Positions 29,459 through 48,796 of a stretch of DNA of 64,000 nt are shown here, one piece after another (within the stretch, counting starts at the first letter, position 1; every line of letters starts with the position of its first letter). Both the position numbers and the translations under genes were made by a program. This stretch comes from Nonlabens marinus S1-08 (lineage in GTDB: Bacteria > Bacteroidota > Bacteroidia > Flavobacteriales > Flavobacteriaceae): contig NZ_AP014548.1 in NCBI RefSeq assembly GCF_000831385.1, forward strand, positions 2,099,779 through 2,163,778, read 5' to 3'. The notes beneath the pieces were generated by a model. It searched no databases, was not told the origin of the DNA, and saw nothing but the letters and a program-made list of their open reading frames with translations.

Positions 29459-29576
29459 TGGCTATGAAGATTTTTTTGTGTAAGCTGATTACTTTGCAAG
29501 TACTTATCAAACTGAAAATCCGCGAGGATTTTCAGAAATAGGCGAGAACAAGAAATTACTAATAGCCGTTATTGGC
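29459..29576 (-). other. attC-like site of cassette 1 (distal, degenerate)
   Basis: Outer arms GGCTAT and ATAGCC enclose a hairpin GAAAATCCGCGAGGATTTTC that is nearly the same as in the site of cassette 2. The matching arms of the cassette are poor (GTTATTGGC against GTATATAAT), suggesting decay at the old end of the array. Confidence 0.6.
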
Positions 29577-29588
29577 AACTGTCTTTAT

Positions 29589-30341
29589 TTAATTTGATAC
29601 CCATTTTCGAGCATCATTCAATTCATTTATTTTATAGGTCTTTATTTTCATTCCTGGGGTTATAAAATCAGCAACTCCTGATAGCTTATCAATCCACTTT
29701 TTATCTGTTACTATGGCGTATTTCCCAACCTTCCCTATTGCTTTTAAATCTACCTGAATTCCTTTCATAAATGTTTTTAGGTTTTCAAGGGCAGGAAACG
29801 AATGTAGCACAATTATTAAATTGATTTTTTCTTTTGATTTTCTGTCAAGTATTTCATAAAGTGCACTCATAGATGTATGGTCTAGCTTGTCGTGATGCAA
29901 TTCAACCTCAAAAACATCATCATCTATTTCATTTATGGTCACATCCGTAAGGTAGTCTTCAGCTCTGTAGGTCTTTTTATCAGTCTCTTTCAACCATTGG
30001 ATTGCTTCATCCCGTTGGGATTTATCAAAAGTTTTTATAGGCATGTTTGGGGTGAAAAAATTGGCTGTCGGGACTAAGTTGGCCATTAATTTCTTGTCAG
30101 ACAGTATAGCATATTTTTCAATGACATTGAGCGATGCTGTTTTAAGTTTGAACAATTCATCAAGTGACGAAAAATCTTCCGGCCACGGCAGTTCCTCCAT
30201 AACTCCTAGCAAGCTAATTTTATCGTTATTTTCCTTAAATTCTTGGAACGATTTCATTAAGTTCTTGGCATCGTTTTCGGTTAATTTACCTTTTGCGTGA
30301 AATTCATAAATGTTCGAGTTTTCGATTTTCTTTAAATCCAT
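29589..30341 (-). CDS. Tandem SpoIIAA-like (STAS/SEC14-type) protein, cassette 1
   Basis: 250 aa from the ATG at 30341 (MDLKKIENSNIYEFHAKGKL). The frame stays open into the upstream B repeat, but that extension is repeat sequence. Two copies of a SpoIIAA-like domain are visible (about 1-120 and 125-250), each ending in the same type of motif: KYAILSDKKLMANLVPTANF...PNMPIKTF and KYAIVTDKKWIDKLSGVADF...PGMKIKTY. Soluble, function unknown; related domains bind lipids or mediate protein contacts. Last, hence oldest, cassette of the array. Confidence 0.82.
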   Translation of the reverse strand: MDLKKIENSNIYEFHAKGKLTENDAKNLMKSFQEFKENNDKISLLGVMEELPWPEDFSSLDELFKLKTASLNVIEKYAILSDKKLMANLVPTANFFTPNMPIKTFDKSQRDEAIQWLKETDKKTYRAEDYLTDVTINEIDDDVFEVELHHDKLDHTSMSALYEILDRKSKEKINLIIVLHSFPALENLKTFMKGIQVDLKAIGKVGKYAIVTDKKWIDKLSGVADFITPGMKIKTYKINELNDARKWVSN

Positions 30342-30380
30342 TTCTCTTAATTTTAATGTTTGTTTTAGCTTGTATATAAT

Positions 30381-30823
30381 GGCAAAGGTATAATGCGTGT
30401 GAGGCGTTCCCTCACGTTTGGCTGTTACCTTGCCTTTTAATGGTTTTGTTTGATGAAGATAGTTAATGTCATTGAATTGTAGCCTCGCGTTGAGCATCTT
30501 GCATCCGACGAGCACAGCGAGAGGAATGCACTGCCTGATGCGCTTTATGCCATGTTCGTGTCAGTTGGTGGAGGAGGCGATGCCTTAGCTAATTACAAAC
30601 CAACTTTTCGATCAGGTGTTTCACACCTTTGCCGTTTCTGTCTCCGACGAGCGAGGTAGGAGCGAGAGGAAGACACTAGAGTAGATCGGGAGTCTTGAAA
30701 TTTTGTGATCCTTTTGATTGATGGATAGTTTTGGCAATGCTCGCATTCGAATCGTTTAGAAATCTAGGCCTTAGATTCAAAATTTCATAGCGGAGAGCTA
30801 CGGCCGCAGGCAATTGGCCTGAA
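30381..30823 (-). repeat. B cassette copy 1 (variant, longest)
   Basis: Same ends and body as the 384-bp form but with two small insertions: one near 30500-30532 and one near 30634-30680, both containing CGACGAGC and GCGAGAGGAA. Its minus-strand start reads ATTCAGG rather than GTTCAGG. Its -7-like element is at 30383-30390. Confidence 0.9.
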
Positions 30824-30950
30824 TGTGATTGTATAAGATTAGTGGCGTGCTTAAGCACTTAATTTAGCAAATAAACACCAGATAGAAAATCCGCAAGGAT
30901 TTTCGTAAGTAGGCGAGAACTAGCCATTAATTTTATACGGTGTTGTAAGC
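30824..30950 (-). other. attC-like site of cassette 2
   Basis: Imperfect palindrome: GTATAAGATTAGTGGC on the left pairs with GCCATTAATTTTATAC on the right, with an internal hairpin GAAAATCCGCAAGGATTTTC. Confidence 0.75.
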
Positions 30951-30963
30951 TGGCTTTTTATTT

Positions 30964-31455
30964 TTAAAATTTCCACCAAGGTTTTTTCGGTTCCATTGGT
31001 TGAACTTCAGTTTCTATTTTCCAAAAAGCACCATCGTATTTTTCATCAGCTTTTTTGTTTGTCAAACTAACTCCATATGGATAAATTCCGTCTTCAAGTC
31101 CGTTTTGAATTCTTTTCATTAATCTTTGAATTGGCCAACAACGAGTTCCGTCTGCTAAATTCACTTCGATATTCACTTCTCCGTTCGGGTCATTGTCGTC
31201 CGTAATCCATTTTGAATCAGGAACATTTTTAATTAAAGTTTCTCCGATATAAGAGCCTATCGAAAATATAGTTCCACCAAAATTTTTGGAAAGGCGACCA
31301 CCTTTAATCGGTTGTCCGTCTTTCGTATATTTTTGGATAAATCGGTCGATTTCAATTAAACTTCCCATTGAGTAGTCTAATTCGATTCCGTCGGATTTGA
31401 ACGCTTTTACAGTCCAATCAGATTGCTTTTTTATATCTTCTAATAATGTCGCCAT
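30964..31455 (-). CDS. Hypothetical protein, cassette 2
   Basis: 163 aa, soluble, no signal peptide. Recognisable blocks are SMGSLIEIDRFIQKY, GGRLSKNFGGTIFSIGSYIGE, DGTRCWPIQRLMKRI and a proline-rich tail ending KKPWWKF. It resembles the general style of small DUF3806-like or immunity-type proteins, but I do not recognise the family. Its cassette arms are GTTGTAAGC (30942-30950) and GCTTACAAC (31472-31480). Confidence 0.75.
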   Translation of the reverse strand: MATLLEDIKKQSDWTVKAFKSDGIELDYSMGSLIEIDRFIQKYTKDGQPIKGGRLSKNFGGTIFSIGSYIGETLIKNVPDSKWITDDNDPNGEVNIEVNLADGTRCWPIQRLMKRIQNGLEDGIYPYGVSLTNKKADEKYDGAFWKIETEVQPMEPKKPWWKF

Positions 31456-31480
31456 TCAGTATTTTTAGCTTGCTTACAAC

Positions 31481-31868
31481 GGCAAAGGTATAATGCGTGT
31501 GAGGCGTTCCCTCACCTTTGGCTGTTACCTTGCCTTTTAATGGTTTTGATTGATGAAGATAGTTAAAGTGATTGAATTGTAGCCTCGCGTAGAGCATTTG
31601 GAACGCCTGATGCGCTTTATGCCATGTTCGTGCCAGTTGGTGGAGGAAGCGATGCCTTAGCTAATTACAAACCAACTCTTCGATCAGGTGTTTCACACCT
31701 TTGCCGTTCAGGCCAATTGAGTGGTTTGGGAGTCTTGCTATTTTGATGAGCTGACGTGATGTTTGATTCAGGTTGAACAACCGTTATTTATGTTAGAATC
31801 GCACTAGTTTGAAGAGCTGATCAAAATAGCATAGCGGAGAACTACGGCCGCAGGCAATTGGCCTGAAC
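31481..31868 (-). repeat. B cassette copy 2 (divergent centre)
   Basis: Ends and attC half match the other copies, but the central part differs: it carries arms GCTATTTTGATGAGCT and AGCTGATCAAAATAGC where other copies carry TGAAATTTTGA and TCAAAATTTCA. The pairing is kept although the bases change. -7-like element at 31483-31490. Confidence 0.9.
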
Positions 31869-31994
31869 GGTCTTGTATATGAAAAGTAGCGGATTTTAAT
31901 CACTAACTTTTTGGATTATAACTGACCTATAATTTATTCATTTTCTTTCGTTTAAGCTTTAAACTGTTATTTTTTATATACGTTGTTAGCAAAC
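31869..31994 (-). other. attC-like site of cassette 3
   Basis: Arms GTATATGAAAAGTA and TATTTTTTATATAC; cassette arms GTTAGCAAAC (31985-31994) and GTTTGCTAAC (33476-33485) match perfectly. Confidence 0.75.
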
Positions 31995-32000
31995 GTACTT

Positions 32001-32519
32001 TTATTCTATTCCGTTTTCAGCGAGTAATTTGTCAAATGCTTTTCCGCCCCAATCCTTTCTTAAATTTTCGTTTTTTGTTCTTGCATTTAAAATCTGCTTA
32101 TTTATGTCTTGATTATCATAAGAGATTAACGCTTTGGTAGCAGACAAATAAATATGTGCATTCCATTCCATTTCTAAAATTTCTATTAACGGTTTTACAA
32201 ATGATTTGTCTTTAATTTCAGATGCTTTTGTAGCATATAAGGGGAAATTATGAACGTTTGATTTCTTTATGTTTTCCCTGATTAATTGAAACCCAAAATC
32301 TCTGTCTTTATTTATTATTAAGTCCAGCATTTGTTCATTCAAGCTTTTTGTTTCTTCAAAATTGTCAAAACTGAAATTCGCAATGTCCAATTCATTAGGG
32401 TTTTGCATACTTTTTTTAGTCAATTCAAACGTCTTACTTGAATTTAAACTGCTTAAATACTCAAATACCTTTGGCGAAATTTTATTTTCTTCTTCCCATA
32501 GCTTCCATAGAAGTTCGTC
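32001..32519 (-). pseudogene. HEAT-like open frame continuing after an in-frame stop, cassette 3
   Basis: The frame of the preceding exported protein ends at TAA 32520-32522 and then stays open in the same frame for 172 codons (DELLWKLWEEENKISPKVFEYL... to KLLAENGIE). A TTG at 32423 could start a 140-aa protein (LTKKSMQNPNELD). The coding-like 32 codons before the TTG suggest either a gene split by a nonsense mutation or an unusual start. The downstream part resembles HEAT/armadillo-like helical repeats. Confidence 0.55.
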
Positions 32520-33467
32520 TTAGCTATCAGATTGAAATTCGTTTAATGCGGAAAAAATCATATTCAAATGATATTTTCTAATATTCTTGTGCTCGACTTG
32601 TGTAAAAGGTATCAGTAATTGGTTTTTTGCTTCTTCATTCTTATAGCTTGCAATTGCTCTGTATAATTGTGTCCATTCATTACTATAATGGGTGTTATCC
32701 AAAGTCTTTTGAAGCTGTGATTTTAAAAATGTAAAGAATTCTGAATTTGGAAAATTACTTATAGCTTTATATGTATGAAAATATCCGCCTTCTTCAGAAT
32801 TGTCTTTTTCTCGATTATTGAGAATGAGTTCAATATCCTCTACTTTATTGTATTTGGCTAATTTAACTAATGCAGATTGGTCATTTTTTTCAAGGTATAA
32901 TTCTTTGATTTTCCCATAATTAGATTCAGATGATTCTATTCGCTGAATTGCACCATACTTGGCATTTAGATTGTTATTTGAGTATACTAACAAGCTGTCC
33001 AACTCTCGAAATTGTTGTTTGTTAAGTTTTTTCGAATCTAAATCCACGTATTGAGGTGTTAGCACCTGAATATAAAAATCGCCAACTTTTTCTTGTCCTC
33101 CGATACAACCAAACTGTGTACTAATTAATTCATCATCGTTCAAATGGTTTTTCACGATTTTGAATAAGTCAACATTTTTATTGTAAGATAAAGCCCAAAA
33201 CGAATAGCTTCTAACAACTCCATTAGGGTGATTAGTTAATTCAATCAATTCACTTTCAGTTGCTGTTTTTTTTAAAGTTTCAAAGTTGTCCCATTGTTTT
33301 GGTCTCATTCCAGATGAGTAAACCGCAGAACTCATCAATTCATTGACTTTCTCAATTTTCTTTACTGCCTTTTTAGTTTTGTTCGAGATTTTACTATCAT
33401 CATAATTGCTTTGAGCAAAAGATGAAATGGTTATAAACAGAATTATGATTGTTTGCAGTATTTTCAT
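32520..33467 (-). CDS. Exported HEAT-like hypothetical protein, cassette 3
   Basis: 315 aa from the ATG at 33467, with signal peptide MKILQTIIILFITISSFAQS. The upstream open extension is the B repeat. ATESELIELTNHPNGVVRSYSFWAL looks like a HEAT-type repeat, followed by a GCIGG block and LDSLLVYSNN. It is clearly related to the cassette 5 protein, which has the same order of motifs. Function unknown; probably periplasmic. Confidence 0.78.
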   Translation of the reverse strand: MKILQTIIILFITISSFAQSNYDDSKISNKTKKAVKKIEKVNELMSSAVYSSGMRPKQWDNFETLKKTATESELIELTNHPNGVVRSYSFWALSYNKNVDLFKIVKNHLNDDELISTQFGCIGGQEKVGDFYIQVLTPQYVDLDSKKLNKQQFRELDSLLVYSNNNLNAKYGAIQRIESSESNYGKIKELYLEKNDQSALVKLAKYNKVEDIELILNNREKDNSEEGGYFHTYKAISNFPNSEFFTFLKSQLQKTLDNTHYSNEWTQLYRAIASYKNEEAKNQLLIPFTQVEHKNIRKYHLNMIFSALNEFQSDS

Positions 33468-33485
33468 TTCGGTATGTTTGCTAAC

Positions 33486-33901
33486 GGCAAAGGTATAATG
33501 CGTGTGAGGCGTTCGCTCACCTTTGGCTGTTACCTTGCCTTTTATTGTTTTTGGTTGATGAAGATAGTTAATGTGATTGAATTGAAGCCTCGCGTTGAGC
33601 ATTTGGAACGCCTGACGCGCTTTATGCGTTGTTCGTGCCAGTTGGTGAAGGAGGCGATTCCTTAGCCAAGTACAAACCTATTCTTCGATCAGGTGTTTCA
33701 CACCTTTGCCGTTTCTGTCTACGACGAGCGAGGTAGGAGCGAGAGGAAGACACTAGAGTAGATCGGGAGTCTTTAAATTTTGAGGTCTTTAAGACTGATT
33801 ACTATTTTTGGCAATGCTCACATTCGAATCGTTTAGAATTCCAGGCCTTAGATTCAAAATTTCATAGCGGAGAGCTACGGCCGCAGGCAATTGGCCTGAA
33901 C
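33486..33901 (-). repeat. B cassette copy 3 (variant with insertion)
   Basis: 416 bp; the central GTTCAGGCCAATTGAG is replaced by a 43-base segment with CGACGAGCGAGGTAGGAGCG, as in copy 1. -7-like element at 33488-33495. Confidence 0.9.
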
Positions 33902-34029
33902 GGTTTAGGCTATGCGCAGTTGCGTGTCTCAGCCTTATCTTTCCAAATATACCCAAACCGTAGAAAATTCCGCAGGAATTTTCGGATGAGCAAGAACCGA
34001 GCAATTGCGTATAGCCAGTGTTGTGAGCT
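33902..34029 (-). other. attC-like site of cassette 4
   Basis: Arms GGCTATGCGCAGTTGCG and GCAATTGCGTATAGCC, inner hairpin GAAAATTCCGCAGGAATTTTC with a one-base imperfection. Cassette arms GTTGTGAGCT (34020-34029) and AGCTCACAAC (34700-34709) match perfectly. Confidence 0.78.
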
Positions 34030-34035
34030 GTACAA

Positions 34036-34674
34036 TTACGGCATTTGTTCAATGGTATAGATTTCCACCAATCTTTTTTTTACCAGTTCCACCAAAAAAC
34101 TGTGAGAAGTTCTTGTAGGGTTTACACCAGAATTCCCATTTGTAAAGTCAAAAGAAACCAAGGGTTTACCATTAAGTGAGCCGTCATTGCTCAATCCTAA
34201 TATATTCATAGATGAAATTGAAAATGGATTTTCGTTGATTTTTGTAAAATTCTGCATAGTTCCGTCGAAAGCTTTTACCATTTCAAAATCAATGTTATTA
34301 GAAGAATAGTCCGCGTCTTGTCCTTGCATAGAGTAAATTAAAGATTTTAATGAAAAGGCACCGATAATAATATTATGTTCCTCGCTTAACTCTTTTTTAG
34401 TAAACCACCTTATATTAATTTGGTTGGAAGCTTCGTAGAATTCTTTTGGCAGATAGATTTCATTATTTTCAACTAATGCTATTGTACGATATGATACACC
34501 AACTTGGCTGAAAGTCATCAACTCGATATTTCGTCCACCCTGACTGTTTAGCTTGAACCGTATATTTTCATCAGTATCTAATGCTATTATATCGGTTGAC
34601 GAATTTCTGTTTTTCCAGAGAATATCATTATTGGTAATATTGAATACTTCTTTTAGTAATTCTATTGGTTTCAT
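34036..34674 (-). CDS. Hypothetical protein, cassette 4
   Basis: 212 aa, soluble, starting MKPIELLKEVFNITNNDILW. Beta-rich, with SLKSLIYSMQGQDADYSSNNIDFEMVK and FDFTNGNSGVNPTRTSHSFLVELVKKRL in the C-terminal half. No signal peptide, no recognised family or catalytic motif. The stop codon lies 6 bases from the cassette arm. Confidence 0.75.
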   Translation of the reverse strand: MKPIELLKEVFNITNNDILWKNRNSSTDIIALDTDENIRFKLNSQGGRNIELMTFSQVGVSYRTIALVENNEIYLPKEFYEASNQINIRWFTKKELSEEHNIIIGAFSLKSLIYSMQGQDADYSSNNIDFEMVKAFDGTMQNFTKINENPFSISSMNILGLSNDGSLNGKPLVSFDFTNGNSGVNPTRTSHSFLVELVKKRLVEIYTIEQMP

Positions 34675-34709
34675 AAATGTTGAATTAGTTTTGTAGTATA
34701 GCTCACAAC

Positions 34710-35093
34710 GGCAAAGGTATAATGCGTGTGAGGCGTTCCTTCACATTTGGCTATTACCTTGCCTTTTAACGGTTTTGTTTGATGAAGATAGTTAATGTCA
34801 TTGAATTGTAGCCTCGCGTTGAGCATTTGGAACGCCTGATGCGCATTATGCGTTGTTCGTGCCAGTTGGTGGAGGAGGCGATGCCTTAGCTAATTACAAA
34901 CCAACTCTTCGATCAGGTGTTTCACACCTTTGCCGTTCAGGCCAATTGAGTAGATCGGGAGTCTTGAAATTTTGAGGTCCTTTTGATTGATCGATAGTTT
35001 TGGCACTGCTCGCTTTCGAATCGTTTAGAAATCCAGACCTTAGATTCAAAATTTCATAGCGGAGAGCTACGGCCGCAGGCAATTGGCCTGAAC
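34710..35093 (-). repeat. B cassette copy 4
   Basis: 384-bp form, nearly identical to copies 7 and 8 (shared change to cactgctcgctttcgaatcg). -7-like element at 34712-34719. Confidence 0.95.
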
Positions 35094-35283
35094 GGTTGTG
35101 TATATGGCTCGTAGCGTACAAACTAGCGATTATTTTTCGGTTAAGCACGAGCCGAATTTTTTAATTTTCTTATTACCTTTTCTTTTCAATAAGCCAAATT
35201 AAAAAATTTGGCGGACTTGCAAATATGCATTAGCTTAGATTAAGCAACTAATTAGCTATGAGCTATATACGGTGTTGCCCACA
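35094..35283 (-). other. attC-like site of cassette 5
   Basis: Long (190-base) type: TATATGGCTCGTAGC on the left pairs with GCTATGAGCTATATA on the right; very similar to the sites of cassettes 7 and 12. Cassette arms GTTGCCCACA (35274-35283) and TGTGGGCAAC (36173-36182). Confidence 0.78.
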
Positions 35284-35291
35284 GTATTTTT

Positions 35292-36170
35292 TCAGAGTTC
35301 AATTCCGTATTTTCTCAATGTTGCTTTAAACCAACCAGACTTTCCTTTCCAATTGTCATAATTTCTCAATTTTTCAATTGCAATTTTTTTGTAATCGTCA
35401 TTTTTACTTTCCAACATTATTTTAGTAAACAAGTGTAAATTGACAACTTCATTTTCGGTTTGAAATTTAGCTTTTGGAAAGTCATTTTTTAAATAATTTT
35501 CTAATTCCTCCGAGTATTCAGACGAGTAATATTTTTTTAAATAATCAAATGCATAAGCATTATTTTTACTAACAGCCAATTCCGTAATTCGAGGCAAATA
35601 ATTGTCTTTGTGTTTTCTATTCTTAAAGGTTCTATCATAAAGTAGCCAATAAACTTCTTTTTCTGAATAGATTATCACGCTATCTAATTTTTCCATAGTC
35701 AAGTCAGTTGCAAGTGCTTTTTGCATTGCTAAATCTTGCTCGTAATTATTGCCTTTAATTTTTCGAGACTCTTCTAATCTGATTTTATTCCAATATTCGT
35801 GATAAATAATTGATGAAACTGGGTCAATTCCCATTATACAACCTTCAAATGTCTCAACCATTTCATTTTTCTGTAATTCAGCTGATAGTAATTCAGGAAC
35901 ATTTCCTTTGTTTGACTGAATGAGCTCAATCGAAGCGTAAGTCCGAATTATTGGATTTTCGTGTCTTGATAATTCTATTAGTTCTTTTTCGGATAGTTTT
36001 TTCTTTAATTTTTGAAATCTTGCGTATTGTGGACTTACCATACAAGCAATTCCGACACAATAAGATTCCACTGTATTTACTTTAATAATTGAATTAATCA
36101 GTTGTTCTTTTGTTTGCGAAAAACAAAGACTAATTGTCAAACTAAATATTATCGTGAGTAGTTTTTTCAT
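35292..36170 (-). CDS. Exported HEAT-like hypothetical protein, cassette 5
   Basis: 292 aa from the ATG at 36170; MKKLLTIIFSLTISLCFSQ is a signal peptide. KLSEKELIELSRHENPIIRTYASIEL parallels the HEAT-type repeat of the cassette 3 protein, and GCIMGID and LDSVIIYSEKE match its later blocks. So the array holds two distant paralogues of one exported family. Function unknown. Confidence 0.78.
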   Translation of the reverse strand: MKKLLTIIFSLTISLCFSQTKEQLINSIIKVNTVESYCVGIACMVSPQYARFQKLKKKLSEKELIELSRHENPIIRTYASIELIQSNKGNVPELLSAELQKNEMVETFEGCIMGIDPVSSIIYHEYWNKIRLEESRKIKGNNYEQDLAMQKALATDLTMEKLDSVIIYSEKEVYWLLYDRTFKNRKHKDNYLPRITELAVSKNNAYAFDYLKKYYSSEYSEELENYLKNDFPKAKFQTENEVVNLHLFTKIMLESKNDDYKKIAIEKLRNYDNWKGKSGWFKATLRKYGIEL

Positions 36171-36182
36171 ATTGTGGGCAAC

Positions 36183-36311
36183 GTGTTTGGCTATGGTTTC
36201 GTTGCGGAATGGTTCGGCAGAATTATTCCGCCGTAAACCAAAGTTAGTAAACACGCAGGAATTTCCGGGAGGAAATTCCGCCGCAATGAACTATAGCCGT
36301 TGTTAGGTGTA
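36183..36311 (-). other. attC-like site of cassette 6
   Basis: Arms GGCTATGGTTTCGTTGCGG and CCGCAATGAACTATAGCC with an inner hairpin GGAATTTCCGGGAGGAAATTCC (one unpaired position). It joins cassette 5 directly, with no B copy between. Cassette arms GTTAGGTGTA (36302-36311) and TACACCTAAC (36828-36837). Confidence 0.8.
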
Positions 36312-36325
36312 GTAATTTTCTGATT

Positions 36326-36811
36326 TCAAACAGCACTAATTATTGCCAAATATAAGTTTGCTGCATAACCACAATAAATCAATAGTTCCTCAATTTCAAA
36401 TTCCGAATTGTAGTCAGCCATTTCAACATCATAATCATAATTTAATTTCGTCCAGTTATTTACTGAATTTAGTGAAAACTGATGTGTCTCAGATTCATTA
36501 AAAACTTCAAATCTTAGTTTCCATTTCGCTTTGTTTTTCAACAAATAGTTAAATTCTTTTCCATTTGCTTTTTCTAGCCTAATAACCATATGACCTTTGA
36601 GGTTAAAGGTAATGTCTCCTATCTGGCTTTCATTCTTAAAAATATCGACTTTACTTGTCCAAATATTTTTTGGCTTGATTACAATATTGTTTCCATTTAA
36701 TGCGGTTTGAGCTTTTTCCGAAAACCAATTAGTATAAGCTAATTCACAAACCTCATCATCATTCTTGATTAGTTTAAAATTACCTTTTCCAGAACTTGAT
36801 ATTATTTTCAT
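36326..36811 (-). CDS. Hypothetical protein, cassette 6
   Basis: 161 aa, soluble. Beta-strand rich (FKLIKNDDEVCELAYTNWF; VDIFKNESQIGDITFNLKGHMVIRL), ending in a hydrophobic segment IEELLIYCGYAANLYLAIISAV. The strand pattern is reminiscent of Tubby-like or LURP-like barrels, but I cannot assign a family. Confidence 0.72.
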   Translation of the reverse strand: MKIISSSGKGNFKLIKNDDEVCELAYTNWFSEKAQTALNGNNIVIKPKNIWTSKVDIFKNESQIGDITFNLKGHMVIRLEKANGKEFNYLLKNKAKWKLRFEVFNESETHQFSLNSVNNWTKLNYDYDVEMADYNSEFEIEELLIYCGYAANLYLAIISAV

Positions 36812-36837
36812 TGCATTTGTTTTTTATTACACCTAAC

Positions 36838-41161: not shown

Positions 41162-41186
41162 TTCTGATGCTCTAATTGCACACAAC

Positions 41187-41440: not shown

Positions 41441-42184
41441 CACAAGTAACTTTTCTTTTCCATTACCATACACTTTTATTTCCTTTTTAAATGTATAGAG
41501 GTAATTTGCAATTAATTTTCTCTCACTTATTTTTTTCTGATTAACTAAATAATGACTTATTTTTTGATTCGTTACAAAATGAATGAGGTCAACTAATTCT
41601 GAAAAGGTATAATTCTTATTAATTCCAATGCCAATGCTCTTCTTAAAAATGTCGTTAATCTCAGTTTTAAGAGCTTGCTCTATTTTACCAAGTGAAACAC
41701 CAGATTTACTTTCTTCCCCTTGTTCTTTTAGCTCTTCTATTGAAGTTGGTAAATCTCCAAATCCTAAAAAAACTTTTGCTCCATTTTCAACTGATTTTCG
41801 TCCTAATTGAGCATTAGAATTACAAGATAATGCAATGACTTTTTTTTCATTAAAAACACTCAGGTTTTGTTCATTTATAAAGTTGTCCTCATAAAAATAT
41901 TTATCCGGTTCTTCAGATTTCACAAGTTCATTTTCTAAAGTTCCATAATAATCTCCTTTTGCTCCATAAAGGCAATTACTTTTTCCGTGACCCATAAACA
42001 ACAATAACCCGTTAACGGAAAAATCTCGAATGGTGCTCAAACATTGATTGTGTGAGGTTTGATTTGGCTTGACGCTGAAATAATGTAAGTCATCTGAAAA
42101 CTCTCCTTGTAAATGACTTTTTATTCTATCTAAGAAACTCGTTGATTTATCATAGGGATGAACAATTAAAATCTTTTTACTCAT
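41438..42184 (-). CDS. Caspase/CHAT-like protease, probable effector of cassette 11
   Basis: 248 aa. The N-terminus KKILIVHPYDKSTSFLDRI starts an alpha/beta fold. His66 in LLLFMGHGKSNCLYG and Cys121 in KKVIALSCNSNAQLG are placed like the catalytic dyad of clan CD (caspase, CHAT) proteases, in which GHG follows strand 3 and the Cys follows strand 4. FLGFGDLPT comes next, as in CHAT domains. Last gene of a five-gene operon (start 3 bases from the receiver gene). I infer a signal-activated protease that would cut cellular proteins; activity is not shown. Confidence 0.75.
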   Translation of the reverse strand: MSKKILIVHPYDKSTSFLDRIKSHLQGEFSDDLHYFSVKPNQTSHNQCLSTIRDFSVNGLLLFMGHGKSNCLYGAKGDYYGTLENELVKSEEPDKYFYEDNFINEQNLSVFNEKKVIALSCNSNAQLGRKSVENGAKVFLGFGDLPTSIEELKEQGEESKSGVSLGKIEQALKTEINDIFKKSIGIGINKNYTFSELVDLIHFVTNQKISHYLVNQKKISERKLIANYLYTFKKEIKVYGNGKEKLLV

Positions 42185-42186
42185 AC

Positions 42187-42912
42187 CTAAATCTTTTCTG
42201 TTAGATATGCAATGACTTGTTGAATTATTTCTCTTTTAAACTCAACTCCAAGAATATCATCATTATCTAAGACGTCTGCAACTTCTGCGTAAGACATCCC
42301 ATTAAATTTCTCGGTTACAAAATTATTTTCAAAAACAAAATCGGGATACAATCTTAAAGCTTGTGTTACAATTAGTTCTGTAGATTGAATGTCATCTTTT
42401 AAAAACTTTAAGATAATGGAATCTCTGTCATCTCTATCTAAATATTCGTGTACACTATATTTTATTAATGACTTTATTTTTCCTAAACCCTTTTGTTTAA
42501 TTATTGCTCTGTCTGGTTCGTTTGCTGTTTTTAAAATTCCTAAGTTAGGTTCAATTATATTTCTAAGCACTTGGTCCAAAACACCAGAGTAAACTAATTT
42601 AGGCGTGTACCTAAATAACCTTCTGTTATTGAAATTGCGTAAAAGTTCTACTCCATTAATATCCTCATCATCTAATTCATAATCAAAAGCAATGATGTCG
42701 AATACTAGATTATGGTATCTTTTTTTGGCTTCTTTTTCAACTTTATCGATATCAATTTTTCCTAAAGAAAGAACTTCAGTAAATGCGGTATTCCCAACAT
42801 CAAATTGTCTGCAATCTAAATCAATTCCTTGATGTCTTGCATCTCTAACCAATTGCTTAATTTCTTCAGTTTGGTCATCATTATCTATGATTAAACAACT
42901 TCTTTTTATCAT
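42187..42912 (-). CDS. Response-regulator-like receiver protein, cassette 11
   Basis: 241 aa. LIIDNDDQTEE supplies the acidic pair (Asp10, Asp12), Asp77 in IIAFDYELDDEDINGVELL is the expected phospho-acceptor at the end of strand 3, and KLVYSGV (Ser109) is the conserved Ser/Thr position, so a REC domain spans about 4-150. The C-terminal 90 residues are helical and not a known DNA-binding domain. It overlaps the kinase-like gene (ATGA). Probably relays a signal from that protein to the protease. Confidence 0.8.
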   Translation of the reverse strand: MIKRSCLIIDNDDQTEEIKQLVRDARHQGIDLDCRQFDVGNTAFTEVLSLGKIDIDKVEKEAKKRYHNLVFDIIAFDYELDDEDINGVELLRNFNNRRLFRYTPKLVYSGVLDQVLRNIIEPNLGILKTANEPDRAIIKQKGLGKIKSLIKYSVHEYLDRDDRDSIILKFLKDDIQSTELIVTQALRLYPDFVFENNFVTEKFNGMSYAEVADVLDNDDILGVEFKREIIQQVIAYLTEKI

Positions 42913-45392
42913 TTAATTATTATTTCAAAACAGGCTCCTTTAAGTTTAACATTATTGCCAATTAATTTAATAGTTCCATTCATAGATTTTAAACCCTCCC
43001 TTACAGAGTTTAAACCAATACCAGAACCGCCATTTGTTGTTGTAATACCTAGTTCAAAGATTTTGTTTTTTGACTTTTCATCTTCTAAGAATTTTTCCGC
43101 TACACCTTTACCATCATCGGAAAAAAGAATTCTTAATTCTTCTTTTGAAGGATTAGTCATATCAATTTCAATTAAACTAGCACCTGCTTTTTCAGAATTT
43201 GATATCAGGTCATCAAGAACAACGGACATATCAAGTACACTAAACTTTTTTGTTAATGACGTGTCCTTTTCAACAATCTTGAATTCAAGCTCATTCCTTG
43301 GGTATATGTCAGAATAAATTTCGATATACTGTTTGATATATTGAACTACATCAGCTATTTGAGCATTTCTATCTGTTTTGAAGTTGGAACGTGTAATTAT
43401 TTTGCTAATCTTATTTGCCTTTTCAGATTGAAACTTAATAGCTCCTAAGGATTTAAGTAAGGAATTTTTGGTATAGGAATCGTTTAATATCTTATCATAT
43501 AAATTATCTACACTACTACTTATTTTTCTAGAAGTAATTTTTATGTTGTGTACTAAACCTTTGGCATCTTCTGTAAGTGTTCTGGAAGATGTTTTTAAGT
43601 AGGTGTTCTTTTCTTTTTCTAATTCTAATTCCTCTTGAAGTTTTTTAGCTTCTTCTTCTAACCTGATAGCCTCATCTTCAAGCTCTTTTGTTTCTTCAAA
43701 CTTCTTTTCAAGCTCTAATTTTAATTTACTCTGTTCCTTTTTAAGCAGTTCAATTTGACTTGCTTGACCTGGGAAATTTTCTATTTCATTTTCTGAGCTT
43801 TTTAAATCATTGATTAGTTGTGTTATTTGTTCAGAGGATAGTGTTTTGTTGTTAAGTTGTCCTACAATAGAATCTATTTCAGCTTTAGCTTTTTTAGCCT
43901 GCTCATCGGCTAATTCTGTAACTAATTCTTTATTAATAGATAACGATATTATTTCGTCATTTTTAGCATTTATAATTTTTTCAATTATTGATATTACACG
44001 CTTATTTCTTGTTAGCAAATCTTCTTTGTACTCTTCTTTCCCTTCGTTCCAGTTTTTGTCATCTAGTACCTTTTTTTCAATTGCTGACTCTTTTAGCGGT
44101 GTACTGTCCCATTTTATTCCTTCATCTACAAATCGTTCAAGTCTTCTAAAAGTTTTAAAATAATAACCGTATGGTGCTGAGTTTTTAGTCAGTTGTTCAT
44201 AATGTTTATTGTTGTCAACACCTGAACGGTTTGAAATAATAAAAAAATCTTCTTTTTCATCATCTAACTCAACTCCATTTATTTCGATACGACCTATTAC
44301 CTCTCTTGTTCCTAAAAACCTACTGTGTCCTTGTCCTTTTCTTAACTCCATACCCAACCAATCATTCCCTTGGTCTCCGTATGGTGGTATTCTAAATCCA
44401 TTAATAAAAAGGAAAATAGAACCAAAATCTACAGACCTTATTCCAGTCTGTCTTTTGAAGTATGCCTTTGAATAAGGATTTAAGTAGTATATGTTAACTT
44501 CGATATCCTTTAGAAGGTCGAAGGGATTATGTTCTTTAAGTGTAAAAATTTCATTGCCTCTATCTCGTAGTACTGTTGTTATAGTTTTTCCATCTTCTGA
44601 AATATTAGCTTTTATGTAAGTAGCTTTGAAATCTAATTTGTTAAAAATCCTATTCTTGACAACACCGTTTATTTTCTCACTTTCTGGTAAACCACGCTCA
44701 ATTTTTTTGAATTCGTCCGCTTTTATAATTACGTCAAAAGATTCAGCTTCAAAGTTTTGATTTGGATTAATGAAGCGTTCTAGTTGTCTTTTTAGAGATT
44801 GAATTTTTGACAAATCCCAATCTTCTCTCAAATTACTGATAAACAGAGTTGTACCTTCCTCAAATTTTTCAAGTTGAGTTTCTTTTACATATTGTTCAAT
44901 CGGAATCTTATCTAATTCGAAATCTACATCTTGAATATTTTTTTCAATGTCATCAACTTTTTCAAATTCAGTCCAGTCTATAGAAAGTTTTAAAAATGGT
45001 TCGTCATTTTTTTTAGTGTAAATAACCAAGGATTTGCCTAACCTATCGCAGGAAAATCTACCAACTCCTTTATTACCTGCCAGCTGTCTATTAAACTCTT
45101 CTTTTTTAGATTTTTTTTCAGAATAAGCAATATTTAACCATTTGTTGATAAGGTCATATTCGGACATCCCTGAGCCGGTATCACGAAGTATAATCTTAGA
45201 TTGGTTATATTTTTTATATTCTTTTGTGGAAAGTTCAGTTATAACATCTCTGAAAATTATTTTTGCTTCATTAGAACCTGCATCAAATGAATTTTTGACC
45301 AACTCCAATACAGCAATATTGTCATCTGTAATTAAATCTTTTCCAATTATACTTTTTAAGAGGATATTTGTTCTAAAACTAACTTTTGCCAT
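42909..45392 (-). CDS. Dual GHKL ATPase (Hsp90/MORC-like N-terminus plus histidine-kinase-like C-terminus), cassette 11
   Basis: 827 aa. The N-terminal GHKL ATPase (about 1-240) has LELVKNSFDAG (Glu30, Asn34), LRDTGSGM (71-76) and GNKGVGRFSCDRLG. A coiled coil of Glu/Lys-rich sequence fills about 500-610. Then comes a histidine-kinase-like segment: KGLVHNIKITSRK with a candidate phospho-His, LDDLISNSEKAG (Asn732), LFSDDGKGV and GGSGIGLNSV near 788. Both ATP sites look intact. GHKL proteins of the MORC/Hsp90 sort act as ATP-driven clamps, and some are found with restriction-modification genes. The C-terminus suggests it also phosphorylates the adjacent receiver. Confidence 0.85.
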   Translation of the reverse strand: MAKVSFRTNILLKSIIGKDLITDDNIAVLELVKNSFDAGSNEAKIIFRDVITELSTKEYKKYNQSKIILRDTGSGMSEYDLINKWLNIAYSEKKSKKEEFNRQLAGNKGVGRFSCDRLGKSLVIYTKKNDEPFLKLSIDWTEFEKVDDIEKNIQDVDFELDKIPIEQYVKETQLEKFEEGTTLFISNLREDWDLSKIQSLKRQLERFINPNQNFEAESFDVIIKADEFKKIERGLPESEKINGVVKNRIFNKLDFKATYIKANISEDGKTITTVLRDRGNEIFTLKEHNPFDLLKDIEVNIYYLNPYSKAYFKRQTGIRSVDFGSIFLFINGFRIPPYGDQGNDWLGMELRKGQGHSRFLGTREVIGRIEINGVELDDEKEDFFIISNRSGVDNNKHYEQLTKNSAPYGYYFKTFRRLERFVDEGIKWDSTPLKESAIEKKVLDDKNWNEGKEEYKEDLLTRNKRVISIIEKIINAKNDEIISLSINKELVTELADEQAKKAKAEIDSIVGQLNNKTLSSEQITQLINDLKSSENEIENFPGQASQIELLKKEQSKLKLELEKKFEETKELEDEAIRLEEEAKKLQEELELEKEKNTYLKTSSRTLTEDAKGLVHNIKITSRKISSSVDNLYDKILNDSYTKNSLLKSLGAIKFQSEKANKISKIITRSNFKTDRNAQIADVVQYIKQYIEIYSDIYPRNELEFKIVEKDTSLTKKFSVLDMSVVLDDLISNSEKAGASLIEIDMTNPSKEELRILFSDDGKGVAEKFLEDEKSKNKIFELGITTTNGGSGIGLNSVREGLKSMNGTIKLIGNNVKLKGACFEIIIK

Positions 45393-46618
45393 TACAATAT
45401 CGAGTTTAAAACAAATCCGACTTGCTCGCCAAATAAAGGTGGTATCGCATTACCTATTTGAGAATATCTAGGTACTTCTTGAGTTCTTCTTTTTCCTCCT
45501 GTTGTGTATTTACCTTTGAACTCATACCAATCGTTGAAGGATTGAATTCGGGCATATTCTCGGACAGTAAAAATCCTTGGTTCACAATAATGAATATAAT
45601 CGTCAGGTAATGTTGTAATGGTTGGTGTTGGTAATGCTCCTGATAATGGGATAATAGTCCTTTTTTTAAGGTTAAACCTATTTTTAATATCGTCTGAAAG
45701 AGTTTTATTTTTATCGGCATTTTCGAGTATAAATTCGAATTTTTCGATTGTAGTAGGGTTGTGTTTCGCAAATCTGTGACTATCAGGGATTTTCGCTGAG
45801 TAATCTCCTTTTAGAAGTTTTTGATATTTGGATTTAGTTTTGTTGTAAAAACCTGCCTTAAATGATGAAGTGTCAGGTGATACTGTTTCACTAATTCTCA
45901 ATAAATCGGATATAGCATCTTCCAAGCTATTTGTAATTCCTATTCCTTTATTAACAAGAAATTTTTCTCTTTCCTTTCTTATAGAATCAAAAAAATCTGT
46001 TGGTTTTGTATTGCTTGCTATGTCTTTTCTAATACCAACTAATATGAAACGAGTTCTTTTTTGAGGAACTCCATATTCTGAGAAGTCAATTAGTCGACCT
46101 TCTACTTTGTAGCCTAAATAATTTTTATCCTTTGGGGTATATTCTAGAGCACTTTTCACGTATTCGGAATACACCTTTCCTTGAATTTTATTTTTGTCAA
46201 ACTTTTGAGTAAACCCTTTTACATTTTCAAAAAAGATAACTTTTGGTTGTACTTGCCTAATAAATTTGATGTACGATTTGATTAATTTATTTCTCGAATC
46301 ATTTTCAATCCTTTTGCCTGCTGTTGAAAAACCTTGACAAGGTGGTCCACCAGCGACCATATCAATAGTTCCTCTTAAATTGATTAATTCTTTCGAGTGG
46401 TTTTTAATTATTTGATTTATGTCGTGGTTTGATTGTGCCAACCAATTTGGCCATTCAAAATGACTATTGTTTTCAATTAAATTATACTCTAAGGTTTTAA
46501 AAGCATCAGGGCTTTTTTCTACTGCAAACTTTCCTTTCCAATGTCCAGAATTGAATAATCCAAGTGATAGTCCACCACAGCCAGCAAATAGGTCGATATA
46601 TGTTTTCTTTTCACTCAT
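45392..46618 (-). CDS. DNA cytosine-5 methyltransferase, cassette 11
   Basis: 408 aa with all main motifs in order: I DLFAGCGGLSLG (9-20), IV GGPPCQGFS with catalytic Cys94, VI ENVKGF, VIII QKRTRF, IX/X REYARIQSF and QIGNAIPPLFGEQV. It methylates C5 of cytosine at an unknown site. No restriction endonuclease gene is next to it; instead an HTH gene overlaps its start (ATGA) and the GHKL gene begins at its stop. Probably marks self DNA for the linked system. Confidence 0.95.
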   Translation of the reverse strand: MSEKKTYIDLFAGCGGLSLGLFNSGHWKGKFAVEKSPDAFKTLEYNLIENNSHFEWPNWLAQSNHDINQIIKNHSKELINLRGTIDMVAGGPPCQGFSTAGKRIENDSRNKLIKSYIKFIRQVQPKVIFFENVKGFTQKFDKNKIQGKVYSEYVKSALEYTPKDKNYLGYKVEGRLIDFSEYGVPQKRTRFILVGIRKDIASNTKPTDFFDSIRKEREKFLVNKGIGITNSLEDAISDLLRISETVSPDTSSFKAGFYNKTKSKYQKLLKGDYSAKIPDSHRFAKHNPTTIEKFEFILENADKNKTLSDDIKNRFNLKKRTIIPLSGALPTPTITTLPDDYIHYCEPRIFTVREYARIQSFNDWYEFKGKYTTGGKRRTQEVPRYSQIGNAIPPLFGEQVGFVLNSIL

Positions 46619-46839
46619 ATTTGCTCTGTAGAATTTTTTGTTGAGTATAACAATTCACGAATATCAACATCTAATACGTTTGCTGTTTTCAGTAGATTTT
46701 CAAGCGATGGTTGTCTGGCATTAGTACACCATTGAGAAATTGTCGATGCATCTTTTCCAATTTGTTCAGCTAACCATTTGTTTTTTCTCCTTGTCTCAGC
46801 AAGAACAACTTTAATCCTGTTGATTTCCAATTCAGCCAA
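46615..46839 (-). CDS. XRE-type HTH controller protein, cassette 11
   Basis: 74 aa from a TTG start. An HTH_3 domain (WLAEQIGKDASTISQWCTNARQPSLENLLKTANVLDV) fills most of it. Small HTH proteins of this kind next to methyltransferases act as controller proteins of restriction-modification systems. A 17-bp near palindrome lies between its promoter and start. It overlaps the methyltransferase start. Confidence 0.88.
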   Translation of the reverse strand: MAELEINRIKVVLAETRRKNKWLAEQIGKDASTISQWCTNARQPSLENLLKTANVLDVDIRELLYSTKNSTEQI

Positions 46840-46843
46840 TTTA

Positions 46844-46860
46844 TTTGTGTTTAACGCAAA
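46844..46860 (-). promoter_or_regulatory. Putative operator of the HTH controller
   Basis: TTTGTGTTTAACGCAAA on the + strand is a near palindrome (TTTG-GTT-AAC-CAAA) that extends two more paired bases on each side. It overlaps the -7 element and lies just before the start, the expected place for autorepression. Confidence 0.6.
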
Positions 46861-46864
46861 TATA
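46857..46864 (-). promoter_or_regulatory. -7 element (TATATTTG) of the five-gene operon
   Basis: On the minus strand TATATTTG matches TAnnTTTG and ends 17 bases before the TTG start of the controller gene. It gives the operon its own promoter, apart from the B cassette. Confidence 0.6.
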
Positions 46865-46911
46865 TTAACTTATTCGGAATAAAATTTACTTTTCTTGATG
46901 TTTTTTCAGGG

Positions 46912-46990
46912 TGGCGGTGGGGAAGTGAAAGCTCTTTTTATTTTGTGAGGCACGAGCAAAATGAAATGTGCTTGAACGTGTGGTGGCTCT
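46912..46990. repeat. Right hairpin repeat flanking the five-gene operon
   Basis: GTGAAAGCTCTTTTTATTTTG ... CAAAATGAAATGTGCTTGAAC; the arms pair imperfectly, and the outer GTGAAAGCTCTTT and TGTGCTTGAAC match the copy at 41374-41440 in the same orientation. Confidence 0.65.
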
Positions 46991-47010
46991 TTTTTCAGCT
47001 TGCTTACAAC

Positions 47011-47394
47011 GGCAAAGGTATAATGCGTGTGAGGCGTTCCTTCACATTTGGCTATTACCTTGCCTTTTAACGGTTTTGTTTGATGAAGATAGTTAATGTC
47101 ATTGAATTGTAGCCTCGCGTTGAGCATTTGGAACGCCTGATGCGCATTATGCGTTGTTCGTGCCAGTTGGTGGAGGAGGCGATGCCTTAGCTAATTACAA
47201 ACCAACTCTTCGATCAGGTGTTTCACACCTTTGCCGTTCAGGCCAATTGAGTAGATCGGGAGTCTTGAAATTTTGAGGTCCTTTTGATTGATCGATAGTT
47301 TTGGCACTGCTCGCTTTCGAATCGTTTAGAAATCCAGACCTTAGATTCAAAATTTCATAGCGGAGAGCTACGGCCGCAGGCAATTGGCCTGAAC
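47011..47394 (-). repeat. B cassette copy 8
   Basis: 384-bp form, nearly identical to copies 4 and 7. -7-like element at 47013-47020. Confidence 0.95.
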
Positions 47395-47586
47395 GGTTTT
47401 GTATATGGCTCGTAGCGTGCAAATTAGCATTGACTATTCGGTTAAGCACGAGCCGAATTTTTTAATTTTCTTATTACCTTTTCTTTTCAATAAGCCAAAT
47501 TAAAAAATTTGGCAGACTTCGCAAATATGCCTGAACTTCCGATTAAGCAACTAACTAGCTATGAGCTATATACGTTGTTGTGGCTA
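47395..47586 (-). other. attC-like site of cassette 12
   Basis: Long type with TATATGGCTCGTAGC and GCTATGAGCTATATA; cassette arms GTTGTGGCTA (47577-47586) and TAGCCACAAC (48292-48301) match perfectly over 10 bases. Confidence 0.8.
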
Positions 47587-47587
47587 G

Positions 47588-48277
47588 TTATTCCTCGGTT
47601 TGCATTTCATCGTTTTCAAATTCTGGCGGTGGCGGTGGAATAATCCTTTTACCATTCATATGCGAAAAATCGAAAAATGAAAACCTTGTATCATTTAGCT
47701 CATCTATTCCTATTCTTTTTCCGTTTGATAATTTGTTATATGGTAAACTGAACCATTTTTCAGACAAGTATTCTTTATAATAATCAATTCCAATACTTAC
47801 TTCCTCTAATGCTAATTTGAGTGATTTTATCGGAAAGGGTTTTTTATAAATTACAACATCAAAATGGACTTTCGAGATTGAATCCCACATTTTTGATTCT
47901 GGAATTTGAACGTCATATTTGTGAGTTGATACATTTGGAATTCCGTTTTTCAAATATTCAAATGTTATATATCTTAAAGAATCTATTTTCTTCAGTTCGT
48001 CATCAAATAAAATCTTTTCATTATCCACAATACTAATAGATGTGTTGTATTTCCCACATCCAAAATAACCTTCCACGCTATCTCTTAAAAAAAAGTATTC
48101 TGACAGCGCTTTTTCAAAATGTTTAGATTTTGGGTTTTCTTGAATGAATTTTGAGTAGTCTAAATATTCCCTAGACTTTTCAGTTTTCAACCACCTAATT
48201 TCAGTTTGGTCATTCTCAACTTCCTTGCATTGAATTGCCAAAATTAAAATCAGAAAAATGTTTAGTGATGTTCTCAA
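47588..48277 (-). CDS. Hypothetical lipoprotein, cassette 12
   Basis: 229 aa if started at the TTG 48277, because no ATG is available between the cassette arm and the signal sequence RTSLNIFLILILAIQC, whose Cys is the lipidation site. The frame is open upstream through the attC half of B copy 9 to an ATG at 48418, so a longer product with repeat-encoded N-terminus is possible. The C-terminus is proline-rich (RIIPPPPPEFEND). First gene cassette next to the recombinase, so the newest by integron logic. Confidence 0.7.
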   Translation of the reverse strand: MRTSLNIFLILILAIQCKEVENDQTEIRWLKTEKSREYLDYSKFIQENPKSKHFEKALSEYFFLRDSVEGYFGCGKYNTSISIVDNEKILFDDELKKIDSLRYITFEYLKNGIPNVSTHKYDVQIPESKMWDSISKVHFDVVIYKKPFPIKSLKLALEEVSIGIDYYKEYLSEKWFSLPYNKLSNGKRIGIDELNDTRFSFFDFSHMNGKRIIPPPPPEFENDEMQTEE

Positions 48278-48301
48278 TTTTTTTTTATAATTAGCCACAA
48301 C

Positions 48302-48685
48302 GGCAAAGGTATAATGCGTGTGAGGCGTTCCCTCACATTTGGCTGTTACCTTACCTAAAATTGATTTAGATTGATGAAGATAGTTAATGCAGTTGAATTG
48401 AAGCCTCGCGTGGAGCATTTGGAACGCCTGATGCGCTTTATGCGTTGTTCGGGCCAGTTGGTGAAGGAGGCGATTCCTTAGCCAAGTACAAACCTATTCT
48501 TCGATCAGGTGTTTCACACCTTTGCCGTTCAGGCCAATTGAGTAGATCGGGAGTCTTGAAATTTTGAGGTCCTTAGGACTGATTACTTGTTTTGGCAATG
48601 CTCACATTCGAATCGTTTAGAAACCCTGGCCTTAGATTTAAAATTTCATAGCGGAGAGCTACGGCCGCAGGCAATTGGCCTGAAC
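48302..48685 (-). repeat. B cassette copy 9, adjacent to the recombinase
   Basis: 384-bp form, nearly identical to copy 6. On its minus strand it begins at GTTCAGGCC right after CTA of the proximal site, then holds an inverted pair CAATTGGCCTGAAC/GTTCAGGCCAATTG and ends in an attC-like half with ACCTTTGCCGTT. Its first cassette arm is thus fused to the recombinase-proximal site. Confidence 0.95.
48304..48311 (-). promoter_or_regulatory. TAnnTTTG element at the end of B copy 9
   Basis: TACCTTTG on the minus strand, preceded by a short hairpin GTGAGGGAACGCCTCAC. It lies 26 bases before the cassette 12 start. The same element occurs in all nine B copies at 2 bases from their lower-coordinate end. 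The -33 TTTG is poor (TGTG, 22 bases upstream). Confidence 0.5.
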
Positions 48686-48796
48686 TAGTGTATAGAAGCA
48701 AGTTACACATTAACTTCATTTAAATCAAGCACTTTCAAATCCTAAAAAGCTATAACATGTCGTTTTTTTAAGTGACTTTCACGTGAAAATATCAGC
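48686..48796. promoter_or_regulatory. Recombinase-proximal attachment (attI-like) and upstream region
   Basis: Unique 111-bp sequence between the first B cassette and the recombinase start, in the position of attI in integrons. On the minus strand it ends CTAGTT at the junction with CAGGCC. It also holds the 12-bp palindrome at 48777-48788. Confidence 0.6.
48777..48788. promoter_or_regulatory. 12-bp palindrome upstream of the recombinase
   Basis: TTTCACGTGAAA is perfectly symmetric and ends eight bases before the recombinase ATG. Candidate operator or recombinase-binding site. Confidence 0.5.

Follow-up and report, generated by a model that had tools for sequence, protein, structure and literature searches.

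A cassette array beside a tyrosine recombinase gene

The window analysed here is a stretch of 64,000 nucleotides from Nonlabens marinus S1-08 (genome G000, one contig of 2.92 Mb; G000:C1:2099779-2163778), and our subject is an integron-like array of gene cassettes that it carries next to a tyrosine recombinase gene. On the minus strand, 21 cassettes stand to the left (upstream) of the plus-strand recombinase gene; 12 have genes and nine are copies of a single gene-less unit, which confirms the count given in a preliminary description of this DNA. Read on the plus strand, every cassette begins with GTT and finishes with AAC, except for decayed copies at the left end. The array limits proposed earlier, 29459-48796, are upheld by the last site (29450-29582) and by an attI-like site (48683-48796). 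In the following list, positions are those of the window, ORF is an open reading frame, attC an attC-like site, NC a gene-less cassette and R1 a match to a covariance model of that name, trained on Nonlabens sites only.

48797..49645, plus: tyrosine recombinase, 282 aa, without the IntI-specific insertion, divergent from the cassettes (PF00589, 1.8e-36)
48683..48796, minus: attI-like site; junction triplet AAC at 48683-48685, followed by TAGTGTATA up to the start of the recombinase gene; kept upstream of orthologues
48698..48730, minus: possible Pc promoter, a lead only; TTG-N20-TAACTTGC, one mismatch to TAnnTTTG, spacing the same in G001 and G008 by eye
48302..48685, minus: NC1 (segment 48527-48685 plus 225-nt core); 14-bp arms, repeat family
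47395..48301, minus: gene cassette 1; ORF 47588-48283, attC 47395-47576; 10-bp arms, R1 47383-47588
47011..47394, minus: NC2; 14-bp arms, repeat family
41187..47010, minus: gene cassette 2, 5.7 kb; attC 41187-41304; 9-bp arms, R1 41175-41316
45392-46618, minus: cassette 2 C5 DNA methyltransferase (PF00145)
42909-45392, minus: cassette 2 double HATPase protein (PF13589, PF02518)
42187-42912 and 41438-42184, minus: further ORFs within the 5.7-kb cassette 2
40591..41186, minus: gene cassette 3; ORF 40700-41161, attC 40591-40708; matching arms, R1
40207..40590, minus: NC3; 14-bp arms, repeat family
39158..40206, minus: gene cassette 4; ORF 39288-40193, attC 39158-39276; matching arms, R1
38482..39157, minus: gene cassette 5; ORF 38774-39133, attC 38482-38601; matching arms, R1
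38098..38481, minus: NC4; 14-bp arms, repeat family
37222..38097, minus: gene cassette 6; ORF 37414-38085, attC 37222-37400 (long type); matching arms, R1
36838..37221, minus: NC5; 14-bp arms, repeat family
36183..36837, minus: gene cassette 7; ORF 36326-36811, attC 36183-36301; matching arms, R1
35094..36182, minus: gene cassette 8; ORF 35292-36170, attC 35094-35273 (long type); matching arms, R1
34710..35093, minus: NC6; 14-bp arms, repeat family
33902..34709, minus: gene cassette 9; ORF 34036-34674, attC 33902-34019; matching arms, R1
33486..33901, minus: NC7, variant arm; repeat family
31869..33485, minus: gene cassette 10; ORFs 32520-33470 and 32001-32423, attC 31869-31984; matching arms, R1
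31481..31868, minus: NC8; 14-bp arms, repeat family
30826..31480, minus: gene cassette 11; ORF 30964-31455, attC about 30826-30941; 9-bp arms, R1 30813-30953
30381..30824, minus: NC9, decayed junctions (AAT for AAC); by sequence, repeat family
29462..30380, minus: gene cassette 12, array end; ORF 29589-30344 (SpoIIAA-like, PF11964), attC about 29462-29570; R1 29450-29582, arms unmatched

The arms of the gene cassettes (GTT.../...AAC, 9-10 bp) match perfectly within the cassette in 11 of 12 cases, as had been reported; the twelfth, at the left end (about 29571-30380), has unmatched arms. Perfect 14-bp arms, GTTCAGGCCAATTG/CAATTGGCCTGAAC, bound seven of the nine gene-less units, those at about 30381-30824 and 33486-33901 being decayed or variant. 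Pairing arms at a spacing of 90-270 nt links the array into a chain of 17 segments, one of which covers three cassettes; the gaps measure 118-120, 179-182 or 225 nt, and five shuffles produced chains of 2-4. The longest ORF lies on the minus strand in 11 of the 17 segments and the other six have no ORF of 60 aa, in line with the earlier statement that the genes read away from the recombinase. The palindrome described after each gene is recovered as well: at E up to 0.01, R1 detects a site behind every one of the gene cassettes, which makes 12 in the window, all on the minus strand; six of the 12 belonged to the training set.

The 225-nt core of the gene-less units escapes R1, which finds only gene-cassette sites in the window. 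Most copies of the unit terminate in this core at their downstream end on the gene strand. Since the core travels with the unit while the sequence on the unit's other side varies, the cassette consists of a segment plus the core 3' of it, which is the integron rule.

A conserved attI-like site with different neighbours

The sequence between AAC and the recombinase start is kept in most Nonlabens regions (same-genus relatives include Nonlabens ulvanivorans and N. tegetincola), so that, as in integrons, an attI lies next to the recombinase gene. At the GTT junction, where the preliminary description proposed to look for differences between relatives, two sister species (G001 and G008) agree in 113 of 115 bases on the recombinase side, AAC included, and in 18 of the 60 bases on the far side; at this place one carries a cassette with an ORF of 112 aa and the other the gene-less unit. 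A shared attI with different flanking cassettes indicates insertion at the junction, in a comparison made between species and with the position within the triplet not resolvable.

Related arrays are arranged in one of two ways. The layout of textbook integrons, upstream of the recombinase gene and divergent from it, is that of Nonlabens, Lacinutrix and a few others; in Flavobacterium, Belliella, metagenome-assembled genomes (MAGs) labelled Chitinophaga and others the array is downstream and co-directional. Of 30 loci of this second, larger lineage, 25 have a box like TATATACAAGTTAGC, whose gene-strand counterpart in the window is TATACACTAGTT, at a distance of 75-125 nt behind the recombinase match. 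A promoter motif that reads into the array also follows the recombinase stop, with a full match in 8 of 30 loci (0.1 expected; none on the reverse strand) and with its -7 box, TAnnTTTG, in 15 of 30 (1.9 expected). TAnnTTTG, which we take to be the promoter consensus of the Bacteroidota type, served for this motif and for the possible Pc of the window, which is just a one-mismatch candidate, the promoter statistics covering the larger lineage only. A promoter inside the gene-less cassette was considered and dropped: TACCTTTG has no visible -33 partner and, by eye, is missing from the gene-less cassettes of G017 and G003.

Cassette ends fold, covary and carry a fixed landmark

To characterize the sites we used 26 arrays, namely eight Nonlabens regions and 18 of 82 relative loci chosen for giving chains; 128 of 134 gaps were retained and six, fitting none of three length classes, were dropped. 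The arm-chain test on 15 regions gave 17, 24, 13, 10, 8, 7 and 7 segments in G000, G008, G017, G006, G003, G014 and G018 (1-5 when shuffled). Chains of at least three were found in 20 of the 82 relative loci, five shuffles of each never exceeding two; many of the others are on contigs that are short or end close to the recombinase. The 9-bp arm test by itself is not specific to this system, as the classical arrays L270 and L271 yield chains of 6 and 7 too. In divergent arrays, 65 of 66 segments with an ORF point away from the recombinase (21 more are without a 60-aa ORF), as do 58 of 63 in co-directional arrays (five more without), so that the arrays run in one direction with mostly one ORF per cassette, as the strict integron definition has it.

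The short class comprises 92 sites (42 from Nonlabens and 50 from the other lineage), 79 of them with cores of 117-119 nt. There are 71 distinct 10-nt arms among these 92; arms that vary between cassettes and match within each indicate pairing rather than fixed sequence. The bottom-strand core folds more than two standard deviations better than mononucleotide shuffles (z < -2) in 84 of 92 sites, and the stems covary, which bears out the fold anticipated from the palindromes. Among the 42 Nonlabens sites, the bottom strand is the more stable one in 40. When 41 of the 42 are aligned and compared with 500 shuffles, 97.8 % of stem cells are paired versus 74.8 % when shuffled, and the covariation score is 0.534 versus 0.141, neither value being reached in any of the 500; slid controls score at most 0.118. 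Cells changed on both sides number 105 versus 36.7 in shuffles and slid structures collapse.

In 85 of 92 sites the stem has, at base 15 after AAC, a fixed mismatch of A with C on the gene strand and hence of T with G on the complement, and a second A.C is seen at the 10th base in 30. A small comparison set of 15 distinct classical sites, taken at two IntI loci in the same phylum, is bulged throughout, and 13 of the 15 are without A.C. At the junction box only YAAC is conserved (Y at -4 in 90 of 92). Our sites thus depart from the RYYYAAC/GTTRRRY boxes and bottom-strand extrahelical bases of classical attC sites, although 42 of 92 do have a bulge, and they nonetheless fold and covary.

Could these be modules that a Xer-like enzyme moves by site-specific recombination of double-stranded DNA, their palindromes being plain inverted-repeat binding sites? 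The pdif modules of Acinetobacter plasmids offer a precedent: genes moved by Xer-like tyrosine recombinases at short duplex dif sites in alternating orientation. The arrays described here likewise combine gene modules with a Xer-like tyrosine recombinase, the enzyme domains are Xer-like, and each junction, L'-spacer-R', could serve as core site. They differ from pdif modules in having long folding sites. We consider this explanation unlikely, given that arms vary between cassettes yet match within each, that L'' and L' covary from opposite core ends and that orientation is nearly uniform.

The recombinase lacks I2 and falls outside the IntI clade

The strict, IntI-based definition of an integron includes the IntI-specific additional domain I2 (PMC9668308, PMC2426708, PMC7790495), and the I2 helix is stated to be necessary for cassette capture, to confer single-strand recombination and to occur in no other protein (PMC7790495). 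The window recombinase scores 159 bits against the integron integrase model TIGR02249, under the cut-off of 265, and the five recombinases scanned score 159-205. Aligned to IntI4, it skips about 43 residues. The distance from KDR to HxxRH is 61 residues in the window protein, versus 103 in 15 of 15 IntI; it is 61-62 in 34 of 36 relatives in our tree (two being unmeasurable), 65-69 in five Xer and, in 36 further loci, 61-62 in 35 and 28 in one likely mis-hit. I2 is therefore missing from the window recombinase and its relatives. R132, K157, H221, R224, H247 and Y256, presumably the catalytic residues, are invariant across 10 aligned recombinases.

The tree holds 56 proteins and is midpoint-rooted; it distinguishes A, the larger lineage (19 rows), from B, the Nonlabens type (17 rows). 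IntI forms a single clade (100/100) with no A or B row inside. The main A clade (100/97) holds 16 of the 19 A rows, leaving L018, L135 and L136 outside, and the B clade (85/68) has 17 rows. A and B cluster with IntI, apart from Xer (100/99). With this rooting the tree does not tell which of A, B and IntI branched off first. A recombinase of 38 % identity in G005 (L053 11212-14480) falls outside the main clades and has three sites directly downstream.

Secondary loss of I2 from the IntI of an ordinary integron, attC and mechanism remaining classical, would also explain the integron layout, the clustering with IntI away from Xer, the scores of 159-205 bits to the integrase model and the presence of same-type sites in some IntI genomes. 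We find it quite unlikely. Besides the separate IntI clade, R1 gives a single match (E=0.69) in ten IntI loci, two of which (L270, L271) have a demonstrated array, and the fixed A.C of 85 in 92 stems stands against bulges in 15 of 15 classical sites. A classical IntI acting from elsewhere in the same genome was rejected as a candidate, there being no match to TIGR02249 at 1e-70.

The highest-scoring NCBIfam family for the five proteins is NF040815 (recomb_XerA_Arch, 'site-specific tyrosine recombinase/integron integrase' at NCBI), with 180-224 bits: window 183, L127 214, L057 203, L060 180 and L126 224, so that one in five passes the curated cut-off of 220 and the window protein fails it. XerA belongs to the chromosome-dimer type of enzyme and is not known to be accompanied by cassette arrays.

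Enzymes of the larger lineage (L127, L126, L090 and others) have an N-terminal extension, 70-125 residues long, that the window enzyme does not have. A profile of 13 such sequences matches best to 4o66, a SMARCA-like protein (E=0.00056), followed by a designed protein (0.0044); in Pfam at E up to 0.5, HARP is matched by four of 13 (best 0.0017) and DUF5710 by six of 13 (best 0.0048). We take 4o66 to be the HARP domain of SMARCAL1. HARP binds DNA junctions, which makes this match noteworthy, and a HARP-like domain in the larger lineage is a weak but suggestive prediction.

Sites and recombinase are associated across Flavobacteriaceae

With R1 at E up to 0.1 we obtained 110 matches in 81 relative loci (L062, which is G018 and part of the training set, was excluded). 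By our reading of the match table, the recombinase has 94 of 96 plus-strand matches on its downstream side (L124 accounts for the two others), and 13 of 14 minus-strand matches are upstream and belong to divergent loci (exception L092, E=0.013). Three further arrays have 201 of 201 matches on the expected strand, and 80-kb stretches contain 97 sites in G134 and 91 in G089, with all sites of an array on one strand. Repeated palindromes of the miniature inverted-repeat transposable element (MITE) or repetitive extragenic palindrome (REP) type, landed between genes by chance and without cassette exchange, would suit the parasitic look of a gene-less unit in nine copies and are hardly credible in view of the fixed junction triplet, the arms matched per gene, an attI conserved with different neighbours, and the side and strand relative to the recombinase fixed in many loci.

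R1 sites at 1e-5 are present in 138 of 149 Flavobacteriaceae genomes, with at most 21 candidates scored per genome, and in 86 of 247 genomes drawn from the phylum. Nine genomes of one Flavobacteriaceae genus (g127) are without a match shown, so R1 may be weak there. Of 102 genomes in which the recombinase is detected at E up to 1e-60, 101 have sites, as have 36 of the 45 in which it is not (Fisher p = 1e-4); two genomes that were not in both searches are excluded. For 14 genomes outside Flavobacteriaceae, the recombinase match is 1e-70 or better in eight and weaker (1e-36 to 1e-46, possibly Xer) in four, with none at 1e-35 in two; in G354, G362 and G485, of another class, the sites adjoin an I2-less recombinase. 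Classical IntI is above cut-off in 105 of 395 genomes from the phylum; G353 is of the same class, the rest listed are of other classes, and none of the 395 surveyed gave one in the family of N. marinus.

A search of genome contigs with the window recombinase as single query gave no relative, and the relatives came with a 10-protein alignment. A search of viral contigs gave 80 loci, among which only two relatives, L135 and L136, come near 40 % identity. Plasmids carry versions of the system: in Chryseobacterium sp. SNU WT5 (L261 14770-28534) a recombinase is followed by six sites, with an annotated group II intron maturase inside the array, perhaps targeting a site, and pSMS7 of Arenibacter algicola (L260 5519-7173) has a divergent recombinase and an apparent single cassette. 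Nearly identical site cores in a Belliella (L126 12120-12237) and in a MAG labelled Spirosoma (L102 12203-12320) suggest cassette transfer between families.

In the genome of N. marinus itself, R1 at E up to 1 gives 21 matches: the 12 of the window, six in a second cluster, two near 2254000 and a weak one elsewhere. The second cluster, outside the window (L276, G000:C1:2276000-2290000), has six same-type sites at 2278935-2285351 on one strand, and the own-genome recombinase search found no family member there. It thereby resembles a CALIN (an attC cluster without integrase) and differs in that its sites are of the type described here, and in that the main array adjoins its recombinase.

Contents of the cassettes

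Only three of 16 cassette ORFs scanned have a Pfam match above cut-off, namely the C5 cytosine methyltransferase, the double HATPase protein and the SpoIIAA-like protein, and positions 28000-50000 have no Rfam match at E up to 1. By tblastn, three of the 16 have homologues in the regions of relatives. Two match cassette proteins of G008: cassette 11 at 90.5 %, and cassette 6 at 52 % with an identical arm sequence in G008. The third is the methyltransferase, with weak matches (26-33 %) in L078 and G011; a small ORF upstream of it (about 46619-46850) resembles a helix-turn-helix regulator by eye. The two in-line ORFs of cassette 10 (32001-33470, stop between) are possibly one interrupted gene. 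The gene-less unit is common to G000, G001, G008 and G014, and G017, G003 and G018 (loci L049, L040, L052) have different units, long-armed and with a core of 178-223 nt. Such long-armed units may be selfish minimal cassettes.

Discussion

We put the probability that this array captures cassettes in the manner of integrons, by means of an I2-less tyrosine recombinase, at about 80 %. This estimate draws on sequence evidence, that is, the architecture, the conserved attI, the cassette differences between sister species, the covariation of stems, the missing I2 and the association of sites with recombinase. Cassettes would leave and enter at the AAC/GTT triplet, with the attI adjoining the recombinase gene as the entry point. 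The arms of a cassette would pair in its circular form, and its attC-like end probably recombines as a single-stranded hairpin, the strand being probably marked by the fixed T.G wobble and unequal spacers instead of the extrahelical bases of classical sites. We infer that the adjoining recombinase performs the reaction, that its substrate is single-stranded and in what way the strand is chosen; our confidence in the single-stranded route is lower than in cassette capture.

Several observations weigh against this view. Sites are common in genomes without a detected family recombinase (the 36 of 45 above) and some clusters are not beside one, while some site-bearing genomes also carry classical IntI (G354, G380, G404), which may act on the sites there. 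Chains are short in 8 of the 15 regions, those of G001 (4), G004 (3), G011, G019 and G016 being no better than shuffles; those of G005 and G015 (3 each) and G017b (5) are above their own shuffles, and R1 later located sites in G001, G004, G005, G015 and G017b. In the other lineage the bottom strand is the more stable one in 27 of 50 sites (22 the reverse), which equals the shuffled background (969 versus 817). Two of five covariation measures are within the shuffles: 37 of 500 shuffles reach the number of pairs changed on both sides, and 132 of 500 do so for further pair types. Stems are bulge-free in only 50 of 92 sites (18 of 42 in Nonlabens) and 42 of 92 carry at least one bulge. Inverted arms and stems could equally serve double-stranded recombination. 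Finally, in two relatives, G001 (L035) and G018 (L052), an in-frame stop interrupts the recombinase gene. Despite this stop, the G001 stretches (L035 and L036) have 14 sites and the G018 stretch has 11.

The array resembles chromosomal integrons and superintegrons in its attI by the recombinase gene, its one-way gene cassettes and its foldable attC-like sites with matching arms, and the relatives add arrays reaching 97 sites within the 80 kb examined and, in one lineage, a promoter-like motif into the array. It differs in the recombinase, without I2 and outside the IntI clade, in an R box reduced to YAAC/GTTR plus variable arms, in the fixed T.G landmark and, for the larger lineage, in an array downstream of and co-directional with the recombinase gene. 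The integron-like cassette capture proposed in the preliminary description is therefore strengthened by attI, attC-like sites, one orientation, matching arms and the different cassettes at the AAC/GTT junction of sister species. An integron in the strict sense is not: there is no IntI-specific domain, the score is 159 against 265 bits, the protein is outside the IntI clade and the sites are unlike the classical ones sampled. By the enzyme and site criteria tested, and as judged from sequence, the array is not an integron.

There is a real chance that we are dealing with a separate kind of system rather than an integron variant. We lean slightly towards the idea that Bacteroidota run a second, I2-independent kind of integron, in which a recombinase near but outside IntI would handle folded single-stranded cassettes with a T.G strand mark, perhaps with a HARP-like N-terminus in the larger lineage. 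It might be ancestral to IntI integrons or an independent invention, with superintegron-sized arrays across Flavobacteriaceae. We found no description of such a system in the open-access literature, among the matches listed; subscription papers and most preprints are outside that scope and priority is not established. Because I2 is regarded as a requirement for capturing cassettes, the finding bears on how integrons arose, and a widespread cassette system without I2 makes the origin of integrons directly testable.

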